Assembly: GCA_903875465.1 (NCBI GenBank)
Contig: CAIQWB010000122.1
Location: 1 to 64,000, forward strand
Source of the DNA: an uncultured Verrucomicrobia subdivision 3 bacterium
GTDB taxonomy: Bacteria > Verrucomicrobiota > Verrucomicrobiia > Limisphaerales > UBA11358
Length of the DNA: 64,000 nt
Direction: 5' to 3'
The position numbers and the translations under genes are program-made. This document shows positions 53,701 through 60,516 of this stretch, in pieces (position 1 is the stretch's first letter; every line of letters begins with the position of its first letter). The notes under the pieces were generated by a model. It searched no databases. It had not been told where the DNA came from and saw only the letters and a list, made by a program, of their open reading frames with translations.

Positions 53701-54945
53701 ATGCATCCAGAATTACTCACTTTCGCCGCGCGCTTGCGCGCCTTGATCTCCGTTTGCCCCGCTTTGAGCCCGGCTGTGCCCGAAACCGGCGCACTCCCCG
53801 GGGGAGCCCATCCCAAACCCACCGTTCCCGCCTCCACCCCCCTGTCGCTGCCGGCCCCGACCGAGGCCAGCTTTGACGAACTGGCGTTGGAATTGTTCAC
53901 CCTCCAGTTTCACGGCAATCCCGCCTATCAAACGCTTTGCCTCGCCCGGGGGCGGACGCCGGGGACGGTGCAAGAATGGACCCAAATTCCCGCCGTGCCC
54001 ACGGCCGCGTTCAAAGAATTGGAACTCTCCAGCATTCCTGCAACCGGGCGCACCACCGTGTTTCATTCCAGCGGCACCACCGAGCAGCGGCCCAGCCGCC
54101 ATTTTCATCATGCCACCTCCCTGGCAGTTTATGAAGCGTCCCTTACCCGGTGGTTTGCGCACTATTTGGGAACCGGGGATACCCTGCGGTTTTTGACACC
54201 GGGGCGGACGGCCGCACCGCATTCCTCGCTGATTCATATGTTCGAAACCCTGCGGCAGCAGCGCGCCCTGCCCGCCTCGGTTTTTCTCGGGAACCTGGCC
54301 ACCGATGGTTCGTGGGCTTTGGACTTTCCGGCCGTCCAGGCGGAATTAGCATCATCCGTTCATACCGGACGCCCCGTGACACTGCTCGGCACCGCCTTTT
54401 CGTTTGTGCATTTGCTGGATCTCCTGGCCGAACATCAGCTCAAATTCCGGCTCCCGACCGGTTCCCGCGTGATGGAAACGGGCGGATATAAAAATCGTTC
54501 CCGCACCATGCCCAAGGCCCAGTTGCATGCGTTGATCACCGCGCAACTGGGCGTGCCCGCCGGGGGCATCGTTTGTGAATACGGCATGAGCGAATTGAGT
54601 TCTCAGGCTTATGGAGTGGCGAGTGACGAGGGGCGGTTGGCGAGCGGGGACAATGCTGCGCCAAACCCGTCACTCCCCCCTCATCACTCATCACTCGTCA
54701 CTGGCCCCTCGCCCCTCGCCCTCCACTTTCCCCCTTGGGCGCGGGCACAGGTAATCTCGCCGGAAACTTGCCGGGAGGTGCCTGAAGGCGGCACCGGCAT
54801 CATCCGGGTGCTGGATTTGGCGAATGTGTTTTCTGTGGCCGCCGTGCAGACGGAGGATTTGGGCATTCGCCGCGGCACCGGCTTCGAGTTGCTTGGGCGC
54901 GCGGAAAAAGCCGAGCCGCGCGGGTGTTCCCTCATGACCATATAA
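53701..54945 (+). CDS. LuxE-family acyl-protein synthetase
   Basis: FKELELSSIPATGRTTVFHSSGTTEQRPSRHFH; VCEYGMSELSSQAY; FPPWARAQVISPET. Confidence 0.85.
   Translation: MHPELLTFAARLRALISVCPALSPAVPETGALPGGAHPKPTVPASTPLSLPAPTEASFDELALELFTLQFHGNPAYQTLCLARGRTPGTVQEWTQIPAVPTAAFKELELSSIPATGRTTVFHSSGTTEQRPSRHFHHATSLAVYEASLTRWFAHYLGTGDTLRFLTPGRTAAPHSSLIHMFETLRQQRALPASVFLGNLATDGSWALDFPAVQAELASSVHTGRPVTLLGTAFSFVHLLDLLAEHQLKFRLPTGSRVMETGGYKNRSRTMPKAQLHALITAQLGVPAGGIVCEYGMSELSSQAYGVASDEGRLASGDNAAPNPSLPPHHSSLVTGPSPLALHFPPWARAQVISPETCREVPEGGTGIIRVLDLANVFSVAAVQTEDLGIRRGTGFELLGRAEKAEPRGCSLMTI
54619..54720. repeat. Low-complexity/inverted-repeat insert kept in frame within the luxE-like gene
   Basis: gagtgacgagggg (54621-54633) vs cccctcatcactc (54677-54689); splits SSQAY from LHFPPWARAQ. 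Confidence 0.6.
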
Positions 54946-54946
54946 T

Positions 54947-56314
54947 ATGAACTTGCCGAATTATTTTCTCGCGGACCTGCCACCGGAAGCAACCTTGTCG
55001 CCGTTGATGGTGGCCGAAGCGTGCCAGGCCTTGAAGCGCAACCGGGAACAATACCTGGTCCGGCGGACCACCGAGCAGCAGGTGACCTTGCTGAGCAAGC
55101 TCGCCGATGAATGGCAGGACCCGGCCAGTCCCTTCCGGCAGTTGGCCCTGGAACGGGGGCCTGCCGAAACGGGCTTTTCCCGGGCGACCATCGAGCGCGG
55201 GTTGGACGGTTTCTTCCGCCAGCTCACCCGGGAAAATTTGCAAGCCCTGCTGGTCCAGGATTTGGGGGATGCCCACCGCCTGGATGACTTGGTGGCCGTC
55301 ACTTCCGGCCAGTCGATCCAAACCGCCGCGCTGGCGATGGCCCCGGAATTTCTCGTCCACATCACGGCCGGCAACCTGCCGAATCCCGCGCTCATGAGCA
55401 TGGTGCTGGGGGTGCTGACGCGTTCGGCCCAGTTCGTGAAGTGCGCCAGCGGCACGGCCTTTCTGCCCCGGCTGTTTGCCCATTCACTGTATGAATCCGA
55501 CCCCAAGCTCGGCGCGTGCCTGGAAGTGGCCGAGTGGCGGGGCGGCTCGATGGACCTGGAGAACACCCTGTTCGCCGAGGCGGATTGCGTCACGGCCACC
55601 GGCAGTGATGAAACCCTGGCGGCCATCCGCGCACGCCTGCCCCAGCGCCTGCGCTTTCTCGGTTATGGCCACCGGGTGAGTTTTGCGTACGTAACCGGCG
55701 AGGCCCTGCCCTCCAGTTTCCGCGCCAAACAAGTCGCCACCCGCGCGGCGGATGATGTGGTGGCCTGGAACCAACTGGGCTGCCTCTCGCCCCACGTGAT
55801 CTATGTGCAAAATAGCGGAGTAATCACGGCGGAAGGCTTCGCGGAATTGCTGGCTGCGGAACTGCAATTGCGCGAGGCCAGTGAACCCCGCGGCGAAGTC
55901 CCCGTGGAAACGGCGGCCGCGATTGCCGCCCGGCGCGGGATCTACGAAGTGCGCGCCGCCCATGCCCCGGGCGACACCCGGCACTGGTGCAGTCCGGATT
56001 CCACCGCCTGGACCGTCATCTACGAATCCGATCCACGCTTTCAACTCTCCTGCCTGAACCGGTTTGTGTATGTCAAAGCCGTGCCCGACATCAAAACGTT
56101 GCTGGAGCACGTCGACAGCATTCGCGGCCACGTTTCCACCGTCGGCGTCGCCATGAACGGCGATGCCGCCTCCGCCACCGCCCGCCAACTGGCCCGCTGG
56201 GGCGTCTTGCGCATCTGTCCGCTGGGCCAGATGCAAAACCCGCCCCTGACCTGGCGCCACGATGGCCGCCCCGCCCTCGGCGATCTCGTCACGTGGTCAG
56301 ACTGGGAAAAATGA
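54947..56314 (+). CDS. LuxC-family acyl-CoA/fatty-acyl reductase
   Basis: VHITAGNLPNPALMSMVLGVLTRSAQFVKCASGTAFLPRLFAHSL; WNQLGCLSPHVIYVQ. Confidence 0.88.
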   Translation: MNLPNYFLADLPPEATLSPLMVAEACQALKRNREQYLVRRTTEQQVTLLSKLADEWQDPASPFRQLALERGPAETGFSRATIERGLDGFFRQLTRENLQALLVQDLGDAHRLDDLVAVTSGQSIQTAALAMAPEFLVHITAGNLPNPALMSMVLGVLTRSAQFVKCASGTAFLPRLFAHSLYESDPKLGACLEVAEWRGGSMDLENTLFAEADCVTATGSDETLAAIRARLPQRLRFLGYGHRVSFAYVTGEALPSSFRAKQVATRAADDVVAWNQLGCLSPHVIYVQNSGVITAEGFAELLAAELQLREASEPRGEVPVETAAAIAARRGIYEVRAAHAPGDTRHWCSPDSTAWTVIYESDPRFQLSCLNRFVYVKAVPDIKTLLEHVDSIRGHVSTVGVAMNGDAASATARQLARWGVLRICPLGQMQNPPLTWRHDGRPALGDLVTWSDWEK

Positions 56315-56319
56315 AAACC

Positions 56320-56769
56320 GAGGCTTTAGGCTCTGGGCGTGGGGCTAGAGGCGGGAAATGGTTGTTCAATATTATGAATGAAATTGGGTATCGCTCATTA
56401 GTGGTGTGGCAAAAGGGAAAAAGTCTGGCCACCGATATTTACCGAATCACGAATAGTGAAAGCATCCGGCGCGATTTCTCCCTAATTGACCAAATGCGCC
56501 ACAGCGCGGTAAGTGTCCCCAGCAATATCGCCGAAGGCGATGAGCGCTCATCGGACAAGGACTCAACACGGTTCTTTTACATCGCCAAGGGCTCCCTGGC
56601 GGAACTGGCAACCCAATTGGAAATCGCCCGTGACGTGGGATATTTCAATACCGAAGATACCGAACCTCTCATTAACCGATGCGTGGAACTCGGAAAAATG
56701 CTGGGCGCGCTGATCCGAGCGCGAAGCGCTTCCCCGCCCCGCGCCCCGCGCCCCGAGCCTCGCGCCTGA
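56320..56769 (+). mobile_element. S23/IVP four-helix-bundle ORF with flanking G-rich imperfect inverted repeats; candidate mobile unit
   Basis: Left gaggctttaggctctgggcgtggggc vs reverse complement of right gaggctcggggcgcggggcgcggggc, 20/26. Confidence 0.5.
56374..56769 (+). CDS. Four-helix-bundle protein (23S rRNA intervening-sequence protein / S23 family)
   Basis: YRSLVVWQKGKSLATDIYRIT...RRDFSLIDQMRHSAVSVPSNIAEGDERSSDKDSTRFFYIAKGSLAELATQLEIA. Confidence 0.92.
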   Translation: MNEIGYRSLVVWQKGKSLATDIYRITNSESIRRDFSLIDQMRHSAVSVPSNIAEGDERSSDKDSTRFFYIAKGSLAELATQLEIARDVGYFNTEDTEPLINRCVELGKMLGALIRARSASPPRAPRPEPRA

Positions 56770-56774
56770 TTTTT

Positions 56775-57137
56775 ATGCATATCGAACTCCGCAAATCGTT
56801 CCAATTCGAAGCCGCGCATTTGCTGCCCCTCCTGCCCGTGGCCCACAAATGCCGGCGCCTGCATGGCCACAGTTTCAGCGTGGAAATCGTCGTGGCCGGC
56901 GAGTGCGATCCCCGGCTCGGCTGGCTGATGGATTACGCCGACATCTCCGCCGCCTTCAAACCCATCTGGGATCAGCTGGACCACCATTATCTCAATGAAA
57001 TCCCCGGCCTGGAAAATCCCACCAGTGAGATCGTGGCCGTCTGGATTTGGAACCAGCTAAAGCCCAAATTGCCCTTGCTCACCGAAATTGTCGTCGCCGA
57101 AACCTGCACCGCCCGGGCCGTGTATCGCGGCGGGTGA
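56775..57137 (+). CDS. queD: 6-carboxytetrahydropterin synthase / 6-pyruvoyl-tetrahydropterin synthase family
   Basis: FEAAHLLPLLPVAHKCRRLHGHSFSVEIVV...GWLMDYADI...LDHHYLNEI. Confidence 0.92.
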   Translation: MHIELRKSFQFEAAHLLPLLPVAHKCRRLHGHSFSVEIVVAGECDPRLGWLMDYADISAAFKPIWDQLDHHYLNEIPGLENPTSEIVAVWIWNQLKPKLPLLTEIVVAETCTARAVYRGG

Positions 57138-58277
57138 CTAAATTTTCGCCGGATGCAATTCCGCATGCGTCTTGATCAAACCCTTGATCAGCGCCTCCCA
57201 GTCCGCCTCCGTGGTTTCCCAGCCGGCGCTGTAGCGCACCGAGCGGACCGCCTGCGCCGCCTTGTAGCCCATGGCGCTGAGCACATGCGAGGGCTCCTCC
57301 TTGCCGGTGGTGCACGCGGACCCGGTGGAAACCGCGAACCCCGCCTTGTCCAGCCGGATGACCCACTGCAACTTCCGGTCCCCATCCGGCATCAGGGCCG
57401 ACACCGTGTTCCACAAGCGCGGCTGGTTCGCCCCCACAATGCTCGTGCCCGGCAGGTGCCGGAGCAATTCGCGCTCAAAATTATCCCGCCAGATGCCGCG
57501 CAGCAGATGCTCGTTGCGGGCAATCTGCTTCTCGCGCACCGCCAGCGCCGCCATCATGGCCGCAATGATGGCAATGTTCTCCGTCCCCGCACGGCGGCCG
57601 CCCTCCTGCTTGCCGCCATGGAGCAGCGGCGTGAGGGTGCTGCGGTGCGGAATTTTCAAGAACCCCACCCCGCGCGGCCCGCCAAATTTGTGCGCGGCCC
57701 CGCTCACATAATCGCATTCCCCCAGCGCTTTCACCGGCATCTTGCCCATGAACTGGACCGCGTCCGTGAAGAACGGAATGTCGTATGCCTCGCAGATCGA
57801 GCGAATTTCGCGCCAGGGCTGGATGACCCCCGTTTCGTTATTGGCCGCCATCACCGCCACCAGGCCCGGACGGGTGTCCGCCAGTTCAGCGGTCAGCCAT
57901 TCCATGTCCACCACGCCGTCCCGGGTGACCGGAATCAGCCGGACACGTTTGCCAAAATAAAATTGGGCGGAATCGAACACACAAGGATGTTCAATCGCCG
58001 AAACCCAGATCTCACTCGCCGGCCCGAGCTTCTTCGCAAAATGATGAATCACCATGTTGTTCGCCTCGGTGGCGCCGCTGGTCCAGATGATGTCCTGCGG
58101 ATGGCACCCAAGATACGCGGCGAGCTCTTCGCGCGCCTCCGCCAGCGCCACGGCCGCCTTCTGACCAAACTGGTGCATGGAAGAGGGATTGCCCGCAATC
58201 CGCTCAGTCACCGCCAGCCAGGCTTCGCGCGCCTCGCGCATCACCGGCGCGGTGGCGTTATAGTCGAAGTAAATCAT
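57138..58277 (-). CDS. Cysteine desulfurase (NifS/IscS family)
   Basis: IYFDYNATAPV; TSGATEANNMVI; SGAAHKFGGPRGVGFLKI; STGSACTTG. Confidence 0.92.
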   Translation of the reverse strand: MIYFDYNATAPVMREAREAWLAVTERIAGNPSSMHQFGQKAAVALAEAREELAAYLGCHPQDIIWTSGATEANNMVIHHFAKKLGPASEIWVSAIEHPCVFDSAQFYFGKRVRLIPVTRDGVVDMEWLTAELADTRPGLVAVMAANNETGVIQPWREIRSICEAYDIPFFTDAVQFMGKMPVKALGECDYVSGAAHKFGGPRGVGFLKIPHRSTLTPLLHGGKQEGGRRAGTENIAIIAAMMAALAVREKQIARNEHLLRGIWRDNFERELLRHLPGTSIVGANQPRLWNTVSALMPDGDRKLQWVIRLDKAGFAVSTGSACTTGKEEPSHVLSAMGYKAAQAVRSVRYSAGWETTEADWEALIKGLIKTHAELHPAKI

Positions 58278-59440
58278 CGGCCAGACAGGATACTTTTGAC
58301 AGCGGCGGTGGCGAGTCTTTTATGAGCGGCTGTGAAGGCCAGTTCTTGGAGGCGGTCCAGTTTGACCCACTTTCCGGGCAGGTTGGAGGGGCGGCGGGAC
58401 AAAGTAGCTTGGTAGGCGGTCAGGGTAATGCGGTAACGGGTGATGGAGTGTTTGACAATGGACAGGGGTTTGAGTGCTGGGGGCTTAACATCAAACAGCC
58501 CTCGGAAAACCAGCGACGGATCGGGGGTTGGGCCGGTGATTTCCACATTCGGAAACTCCCATAAATGGGCATTGACCACCCCGGCGGGGCGCTGGCGGAT
58601 GAAAATTTCACCGCGCGAGGTCATAACGAAGGCCATGAAGGCGCGGGCGGTGCTGGTGGCGCGTTCGCCGAGGTTGGGCAATTCCTCGGTGCGCTGCTGG
58701 CGGAAGGCGGCACATTCGGATTGCACAGGGCACAGCAGACATTGCGGCTGGCGCGGGGTGCAGATGAGCGCGCCAAGCTCCATGAGGGATTGGTTTAGGA
58801 AGGAGGCTCTGGGCTCTGGGCTTTGGGCTTTGGGTGGCAAAATCTGGGCACGGGGCGCGAGGCTTGGGGCGCGGGGCGAGGATGCCACGGCTTGCTGGAC
58901 GAGTTGGGTGGCGAGGGTCCAGAGGTGGGTGTTGGTGGTTTTGTCCTTGGGATTTTCGGCGATGGCGAAAAGACGGGTGAGGACGCGGATGACATTGCCA
59001 TCCAAAATGGGAGTGGGCTGGTTGAAGGCGATGCTGCAGATCGCGCCGGCGGTGTAACGGCCAATGCCCGGCAGGGCCAGCACCTCGTCAAAGGCTTCCG
59101 GGAACCGGCCGCCATGCTGCACCACAATCGCCTGCGCCGCCTTTTGCAAATTCCGCACCCGGGTGTAATAGCCCAACCCCTCCCAGAGCTTGTGAATCTG
59201 GTCTGCCGGCGCTGCCGCCGCCGCCTCAATCGTGGGGAGCGCCTGCATCCATCGTTCCCAATAAGGAATGACCGTCTTCACCTGCGTCTGCTGCAGCATG
59301 ATTTCCGACACCCAAATGGCGTAGGGATCACGGGTGCGCCGCCAGGGGAGGTCGCGGGCTGCGCGGGCGAACCAGGCGAGCAAGTTGGAGGCAATGGCGG
59401 GGGCTTTTTTCAGGTCCCGGGGTAATTTGTCAACGGGCAT
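58274..59440 (-). CDS. mutY: A/G-specific adenine glycosylase
   Basis: RDPYAIWVSEIMLQQTQVKTVIPYWERW; LPGIGRYTAGAI; LNQSLMELGALICTPRQPQCLLCPVQSEC. Confidence 0.93.
   Translation of the reverse strand: MPVDKLPRDLKKAPAIASNLLAWFARAARDLPWRRTRDPYAIWVSEIMLQQTQVKTVIPYWERWMQALPTIEAAAAAPADQIHKLWEGLGYYTRVRNLQKAAQAIVVQHGGRFPEAFDEVLALPGIGRYTAGAICSIAFNQPTPILDGNVIRVLTRLFAIAENPKDKTTNTHLWTLATQLVQQAVASSPRAPSLAPRAQILPPKAQSPEPRASFLNQSLMELGALICTPRQPQCLLCPVQSECAAFRQQRTEELPNLGERATSTARAFMAFVMTSRGEIFIRQRPAGVVNAHLWEFPNVEITGPTPDPSLVFRGLFDVKPPALKPLSIVKHSITRYRITLTAYQATLSRRPSNLPGKWVKLDRLQELAFTAAHKRLATAAVKSILSGR
58802..58880. repeat. G-rich low-complexity insert kept in frame within mutY
   Basis: ggaggctctgggctctgggctttgggctttggg...cgaggcttggggcgcggggcgagg; encodes SSPRAPSLAPRAQILPPKAQSPEPRAS. 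Confidence 0.65.
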
Positions 59441-59485
59441 ACCTCAAACGAACAACATGCCCACGGAGCAATTCAAATAGACGAA

Positions 59486-60220
59486 GTGAATGCGCGTTGC
59501 TATTTTCACCGTATGCATAAGTGGTTCCAAATTCCTGTCTTAGTCGGAATTATTTTATTTATTCTGCAACCTGCCAATTTATTTGTGGTGCCTGCCCAGA
59601 CAAATGCCAACGAGCCAAAGTATTCTTTGCCTGACATTAAAACTGAATTTGTGGAAGGAGCCAAGCTTTCAGCAGCGGAAATAAACCAAGTCGTATCACT
59701 TGCTAAACAATGTGGCATTCCCGACGTTGAGTATGTAAGGACCTTCCACTACCTCCCTGCTGGCGGAAGTGGCATTTCGGTCACCAGCCAGGAAAGAAAG
59801 GTTGGGCGAAGTGTCTCGTACGACTGTGTAATGGTCAATCGGACTGGGTGGGGATACCCCATAACGGCGGAAAGGAAAAAGAAAGTTGGAGCATTTTGGG
59901 TGACTGAGCCATATCTAAGCACAACTCATTTACGTGAATTCGTCATTGTCAAAAAAGCCATCCGTCTTGCTATCGGAAAAGATGTAGATGTTGCCCTGGC
60001 TGATCGAGTCATACCTTTAATTACCGCAAGGAAAGTTCATTGCAAGGATGACTGGACTCGCCGCGAATTTGAAAGTCTGGACGTCTCGCAACCCGAGAAT
60101 ATTTTAAAGAGCCCAATCGGGGAGGGATACGAAGTTTATTTACCAGGAATGAAAATCCTCGAATTTAAGGAGGAGAAAGGGCAAGTAATTGTAATCGGCA
60201 TAGCGAGTTATGTCATTTAA
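59486..60220 (+). CDS. Hypothetical secreted protein
   Basis: Signal peptide-like N-terminus; long ORF of lower GC than its neighbours. Confidence 0.6.
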   Translation: MNARCYFHRMHKWFQIPVLVGIILFILQPANLFVVPAQTNANEPKYSLPDIKTEFVEGAKLSAAEINQVVSLAKQCGIPDVEYVRTFHYLPAGGSGISVTSQERKVGRSVSYDCVMVNRTGWGYPITAERKKKVGAFWVTEPYLSTTHLREFVIVKKAIRLAIGKDVDVALADRVIPLITARKVHCKDDWTRREFESLDVSQPENILKSPIGEGYEVYLPGMKILEFKEEKGQVIVIGIASYVI

Positions 60221-60264
60221 GATCAGCCAGTCTGTAACTCGGCTAATTGAAGGTTGAAAAGTGA

Positions 60265-60516
60265 TTACCTAGACCCAAATGGGATGGGCGCGCGGTGGCA
60301 AAGCGGTGTCTGGGGCTCACCATGCACGTAATGATCGAGGTTGGCGGCGAGATCGGCGGGCATATCACGGGCCATGCCGTCAAAATCTTTGAGCGTCTCG
60401 AACAGTGTGGGTGTCTGTTCCTCCACCGGCTCAATGCGAACGATGGTCCCCGGTGCCCATGGCACATCGCCGGGCAGTTGGATCATTCCCTTTTCAATGC
60501 CGGCGGTATTGCTCAT
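60265..60516 (-). CDS. Small AF2212/DUF104-like putative antitoxin
   Basis: GMIQLPGDVPWAPGTIVRIEPVEEQTPTLFETLKDFDGMARDMPADLAANLDHYVHGEPQ. Confidence 0.55.
   Translation of the reverse strand: MSNTAGIEKGMIQLPGDVPWAPGTIVRIEPVEEQTPTLFETLKDFDGMARDMPADLAANLDHYVHGEPQTPLCHRAPIPFGSR

Follow-up and report, generated by a model that had tools for sequence, protein, structure and literature searches.

Dispersed five-core boxes as probable in-frame insertions in a mutY gene, and their putative link to S23 genes

An uncultured Verrucomicrobia subdivision 3 bacterium carries, inside its mutY gene, a G-rich stretch which resembles the ends of an S23 unit lying only 2 kb away, and this raises the question of what the stretch is and how it came to be there. 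The locus belongs to a contig (CAIQWB010000122.1) of which 64,000 nucleotides, hereafter called the window, were analysed, and its features are collected in Table 1. The initial annotation of this DNA had read the stretch as a solo element or an excision footprint of the S23 unit. To our knowledge, no function has been established for the S23 (23S rRNA intervening sequence) proteins. The family is likewise presented as lacking an established function in a published account (PMC4990558).

Table 1. Positions in the window of the mutY insert, its boxes, the neighbouring S23 unit and a further heptad array.
Feature	Position	Strand	Remarks
mutY, 388 aa, intact; carries the insert	58274..59440	-	HhH-GPD, HHH, NUDIX_4; FeS cysteines present
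Extra in-frame stretch of mutY	58802..58881		Loop flanked by predicted helices 167-186 and 211-225
Box 1: GGCTCTG twice, GGCTTTG twice, GG	58805..58834	+	Absent from sister species
Spacer TGGCAAAATCTG, 12 nt, separating boxes 1 and 2	58835..58846
Box 2: GGCACGG, GGCGCGA, GGCTTGG, GGCGCGG, GGCGAGG	58847..58881	+	Matches the single mutY box of G012
S23 unit, left end: five-core GGC box	56322..56356	+
S23 gene (PF05635, 23S rRNA-intervening sequence protein)	56374..56769	+	E = 2.3e-35
S23 unit, right end: five-core GGC box	56732..56766	-	Inverted relative to the left end
Further period-7 array, GAGTGAY type plus GCCCCTC units	54665..54741	-	Another heptad family

The G-rich text was confirmed to lie in frame within MutY, to which it adds the residues SSPRAPSLAPRAQILPPKAQSPEPRAS. 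The invariant columns of a 23-member MutY alignment include the cysteines of the FeS cluster along with further core residues. Comparison with 49 orthologues identifies the stretch as an insertion, as had been proposed, the linker not being conserved in other MutYs. Among 50 MutY sequences of the genus and the order, the linker between ..LV..A and ..LNQSLMELGAL ranges in length from 9 to 43 aa; the shortest ones (L062-L064) have 9 aa, that of the organism studied 33 aa and that of its nearest relative (G012) 19 aa. In the structure prediction, with a mean pLDDT of 82, residues 191-207 remain below 50, and the loop is taken to be disordered and at the protein surface. The linker-length comparison and the structure model together establish, therefore, that the insert is real, in frame and within a loop, while at the protein level it is most likely a tolerated passenger.

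At the DNA level, the linker matches itself at period 7 with a value of 0.51 (p<=0.005 against codon shuffles). It holds two boxes, which are direct copies on the same strand with GGC cores 7 nt apart, the first being made up of four heptads followed by the start of a fifth core. In general, a box comprises five GGC cores at a spacing of 7 nt and totals about 31-36 nt. When 54 GGC arrays of at least three units were collected from parts of the own and G012 genomes, about 29 of them had five units; an A usually precedes the array, and the final unit is often GGCGGGG or GGCGGGA, followed by AA. Both the mutY boxes and the arms of the S23 unit share the form of these dispersed arrays. The exact three-unit GGC pattern gives 18 matches in the own genome, 58 in G012 and 0-12 in 57 other relatives, and, across 50 aligned orthologues, GGC boxes within mutY occur in the own genome and G012 only. 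Other genes with similar text were also found, namely a 520-aa ORF without Pfam match, which contains PAPSLKPKAQSL, and an AMP-binding enzyme in which PCPAPRAS directly precedes the YVIYTSGSTG motif; both copies lie in open frames and are candidate insertions. RLGALGAR of a threonyl-tRNA synthetase (C46) was discarded as an insert, having three units only and being probably ordinary protein sequence, and a plain text match to S23 alone proved too narrow, given that GGC heptads are scattered over dozens of genomic sites. No Rfam match was obtained within 54500-60500. It is very probable that mutY has taken up, in frame, a five-core box of this dispersed kind. Two further observations concern the neighbourhood: the plus strand of 58795-58890, antisense to the insert, is predicted to fold unusually strongly (-44 kcal/mol, z = -3.5), pairing the two boxes via G-U and G-C pairs, and the S23 unit on contig C1 has arms with the same GAGTGAY-type heptad as the 54665-54741 array.

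The same MutY loop holds at least eight unrelated repeat types among 50 relatives. Family A is a GTAG...CTAC hairpin (L027, L044, L056 and L032) which looks like a GTAG REP dimer, family B consists of GGTGGGGCGAG hairpins, and families C and D of CGCGAAG and GCAAAG hairpins, respectively; there are also heptad arrays with different sequences (AACTCAA, CACTCAT, TTCATCC), and the L025 linker (mutY of G017) nests three families, still in frame, by combining C with an AAAGCGG heptad array and a portion of A. Linkers of at least 15 aa (n=45) yielded 16 significant hairpins and 10 significant period-7 arrays, as against 3 and 3 in control coding segments of the same genes (n=50), with significance taken from 100-200 shuffles and p-values correspondingly coarse. 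A tree of MutY sequences with the linker removed requires 22 or more switches of repeat class, 19 of them within the 31 genus members, a count that is rough because 24 of the 47 inner branches are open; shuffled labels give a mean of 26 changes and a minimum of 22. The repeats of families A, B1 and C are dispersed, and the loop tends to hold whichever family is abundant in the genome that carries it (p=0.0003 for C, 0.004 for B1 and 0.04 for A, the link for A not being significant within the genus, 0.14). In G019, an apparent second heptad array lies near the 5' end of mutY (L116:8020-8051), besides the linker array. With high confidence, the MutY loop can be regarded as a recurrent acceptor of small repeats, and one loop collecting unrelated repeats lineage by lineage is, as far as literature searches show, a new observation. 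It also bears on whether the insert might be just a proline-rich linker, functional or neutral, shaped by ordinary substitution: MutY linkers do differ in length and sequence in all the relatives examined, but the period-7 structure of the DNA, the fact that it is of the same type as the dispersed boxes and the unrelated repeat families at this spot in relatives leave that explanation a negligible chance.

As for the origin of the boxes, the S23 unit itself sits between a LuxC-like and a PTPS gene, outside any rRNA gene. Its right-end box encodes the C-terminal tail of the S23 protein, SPPRAPRPEPRA, and the protein is matched weakly, below cut-off, by the bAvd profile; in the own genome, arms of GGC type are present on only some S23 genes. 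The likeness between insert and unit ends that had been noticed at first was borne out as far as the kind of box is concerned, since all of them are five-core GGC boxes, and a solo element of the S23-end type does exist, twice in mutY and in dozens of solo copies elsewhere; the pair arrangement, on the other hand, differs, as the mutY boxes lie on the same strand whereas the S23 ends are inverted.

The sister species, G012, whose MutY is 79% identical to the own one, is informative in this context. Both MutYs are sisters with a support of 100, the next branch (L020) having no box. The mutY of G012 contains exactly one box and the own gene two, a difference of 42 nt or 14 codons, and the S23 unit is located at the same place in both genomes. 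The S23 gene is 97% identical between them, with a third-codon identity of 0.92 compared with 0.65 and 0.68 for the genes flanking it, and the S23 core thus appears to be younger than its surroundings, or else unusually constrained, perhaps at the RNA level. No clean empty box site was found between contig C122 and G012, which are collinear only over about 54-64 kb. In G012, the PTPS and aminotransferase genes are separated by a segment of about 870 bp (L115:3602-4475), which is absent from the own genome and resembles by eye a small two-gene module of toxin-antitoxin type, with putative DUF433-like and PIN-like members.

One could suppose that mutY once received a complete S23 unit, the ends of which stayed behind as a solo remnant or excision footprint, given that the mutY boxes are of the same family as the unit ends 2 kb off and that the S23 gene, by its third-codon identity, looks mobile or horizontally exchanged. 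Nevertheless, loss of an S23 core would leave inverted boxes, while those of mutY are direct, the sister species has its single mutY box without any trace of an S23 core, and dozens of solo boxes exist elsewhere. The direct boxes and the lack of an S23 remnant speak against an excision footprint, so this part of the initial annotation is abandoned, and such a history must be considered highly improbable.

The association of boxes with S23 genes was followed among relatives and in the phylum. Genomes of the genus hold 1-14 PF05635 genes, and S23 flanks show lag-7 matches of 0.43 and 0.36, compared with 0.24 farther away. Period-7 arrays were found in 27 of 62 S23 flanks of the genus and in 22 of 56 of the phylum, the latter being an independent draw, with 1 array in the controls of each; period-8 arrays occurred in 8/56 phylum S23 flanks versus 0/56 controls. 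Arms pair within their own unit in 21 of 31 cases (genus) and 20 of 28 (phylum), as compared with 8 of 300 and 9 of 270 cross pairs, and the period is identical in both arms in all 27 S23 units with both arms called. The heptad sequence varies between S23 units, yet it is common to both arms of a unit (L085-L114, L135-L153, L215-L243). Five cores are the mode, both at period 7 (22/34 arrays) and at period 8 (11/21, a few of these arrays being one Phycisphaerales locus counted twice), while two period-9 arrays have five cores and three have ten. A search of related loci for generality covered three loci, two of which were useful, from Phycisphaerales and Patescibacteria; the S23 flank arrays of periods 8 and 9 at L186/L212 (Phycisphaerales) and L187/L209 (Patescibacteria) often have five cores. 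Long arrays also occur, from 7 to 22 units overall, and a few S23 flanks bear very long ones of 10-22 units (L226, L243, L230 and L150).

Solo arrays share this format. In about 425 kb, mostly from the genus, 40 solo arrays of period 7 were detected, the other periods tested giving 0-10, and their spans peak at 30-33 nt (25/40), that is, four heptads plus a fifth core, like the S23 arms; the detection threshold disfavours short imperfect arrays, and the scarcity of longer ones is left unexplained by it. What usually recurs, and is proposed here as a class, the S23 box, is a set of five cores at a constant spacing of 7-9 nt, either inverted around S23 or solo. Solo boxes are abundant mainly within the genus. 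A strict dependence of solo boxes on S23 was not supported, the comparison of box density between S23-positive and S23-negative genomes, in a sample of 13 single-contig phylum genomes, being non-discriminating and slightly against it: S23-negative G148 has two five-core boxes per 100 kb, and in S23-positive G078, G081 and G093 none were found in 80-100 kb.

The sharp format also allows local growth of the repeat to be weighed. Bacteria in general show an over-representation of heptanucleotide repeats (PMC4679880, PMC4692102), and L059 and L062 differ by 21 nt between AATTCAAAA repeats, as slippage or its reversal would lead one to expect; the insert could accordingly be pictured as a heptanucleotide repeat that expanded locally because the loop tolerates it, mobile elements playing no part. 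However, the same GGC heptads are found at dozens of unlinked sites in just two sister genomes, the second own box is of a different subfamily and set off by a spacer, and lengths peak sharply at ~4.4 units with few longer arrays, where slippage alone predicts a smooth spread, all of which makes slippage unlikely.

The closest known repeats are the GGGNATC heptamers of Xanthomonas and Nostoc (Rehm et al. 2015, PMC4692102), which are likewise dispersed 7-nt tandem units, mostly outside genes. They prefer four full units, where the boxes described here have four plus a fifth core, and G-tracts are their defining trait, quadruplexes being the explanation given for them, with no S23 link mentioned (PMC4692102). 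The sequence of box 1, GGGCTCTGGGCTTTGGGCTTTGGG, is a canonical motif with four tracts, and, with the four-unit preference reported by Rehm et al. (PMC4692102), this would suit a G-quadruplex repeat in which four G-tracts are kept as a structural requirement. Nevertheless, the length and period preference is the same in arrays without G-tracts (GATTTAC, AAAGCGG, AATCGTA, ACTCAAA) and it extends to periods 8 and 9, so that quadruplex formation is not the common cause. As a general explanation it was rejected, because most genus arrays have no G-tracts and AT-rich boxes share the format; as an account of the insert it is improbable, although a quadruplex role for the GGC boxes themselves is possible. 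In short, the 7-nt unit, the dispersal and the preferred unit number are those of GGGNATC-type repeats, whereas most families here lack G-tracts, inverted pairs flank S23 and periods 8 and 9 occur. The TAACTGA repeats of Beggiatoaceae (PMC4679880) and the cyanobacterial STRR are also dispersed heptanucleotide direct repeats, but they belong to one heptad family and lie mainly upstream of start codons, with no S23 link mentioned (PMC4679880).

REPs and REPtrons, as well as Rickettsia palindromic elements, are also small dispersed repeats found in frame within genes, repair genes included, intragenic GTAG/CGTC REPs having been described in DNA-repair genes of Opitutus (PMC3733652). The box behaves likewise in its dispersal and its in-frame genic copies, and REPtrons, like the S23 unit, have a gene between inverted repeat copies and solo copies elsewhere. 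The own box, in contrast, is non-palindromic and has no GTAG/CGTC tag at its ends, as it starts with GGC after an A and ends with GGCGGGG before AA, and the flanked gene is S23 rather than a tyrosine transposase. The analogy with Rickettsia palindromic elements drawn in the initial annotation consequently holds in principle, for repeats within coding genes, but not for palindromicity: the coding-strand fold of the insert has z = -0.10, and the single mutY box of G012 (L016) contains no inverted repeat (p=0.88). With respect to the IVS of Coxiella (PMC4990558), the S23 ORF lies within inverted repeats as here, and tandem heptamers (GACAGAT) whose number varies between strains are found just upstream of S23 (PMC4990558), which was the only case of S23 with heptad repeats that literature searches brought up. 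The Coxiella IVS, however, resides in 23S rRNA, whereas the present unit, although encoding a PF05635 protein, lies between protein genes and its heptad boxes also stand alone elsewhere.

Taken together, the reading which is moderately favoured is that a dispersed box entered an acceptor loop of MutY, the box being a putative binding site of S23 and the solo boxes non-autonomous relatives of the S23 unit. The full unit would consist of an inverted pair of boxes plus the S23 gene, and solo boxes would relate to it as REPs do to RAYT genes. Boxes would reach new sites by a transposition-like or recombination process. Coding selection retains only those insertions that leave the frame open and have a length divisible by three, an extra box with its spacer measuring 42 nt. 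Against such spreading stands that boxes were not seen to move and that no duplication of a target site was delimited. No catalytic domain is known in S23, so this protein alone cannot account for the copying, and it may be a passenger or regulator rather than the mover.

Within this scheme, a box would most likely be the stretch of nucleic acid to which the S23 protein binds, although the odds that S23 is the cognate protein of the boxes are even. The S23 protein of X. campestris is a homopentamer (PMC4990558), and the solved S23 homologues 2gsc and 2rld have five chains each. One core could then be bound by each protomer of the pentamer, an attractive but tentative correspondence between five cores and five protomers. 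In TRAP, eleven subunits read eleven triplets. By analogy, and with somewhat greater reserve still, the repeat class might be set by its format and not by its sequence: five cores at a fixed spacing of 7, 8 or 9 nt, read by an S23 homopentamer with one protomer per core, the inverted pairs forming the full unit and the solo boxes spreading into genes, mutY among them, while core sequences drift freely and the two arms are kept alike.

As far as literature searches show, both the box format and its tie to S23 genes are new. The format common to S23 flanks and solo arrays, at three spacings, leads to a concrete hypothesis on what S23 proteins bind, which, if true, would provide a common explanation for the over-represented heptanucleotide repeats of bacteria. 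Furthermore, the MutY loop can be seen as a natural trap, which keeps a log of the small repeats spreading through these genomes lineage by lineage.
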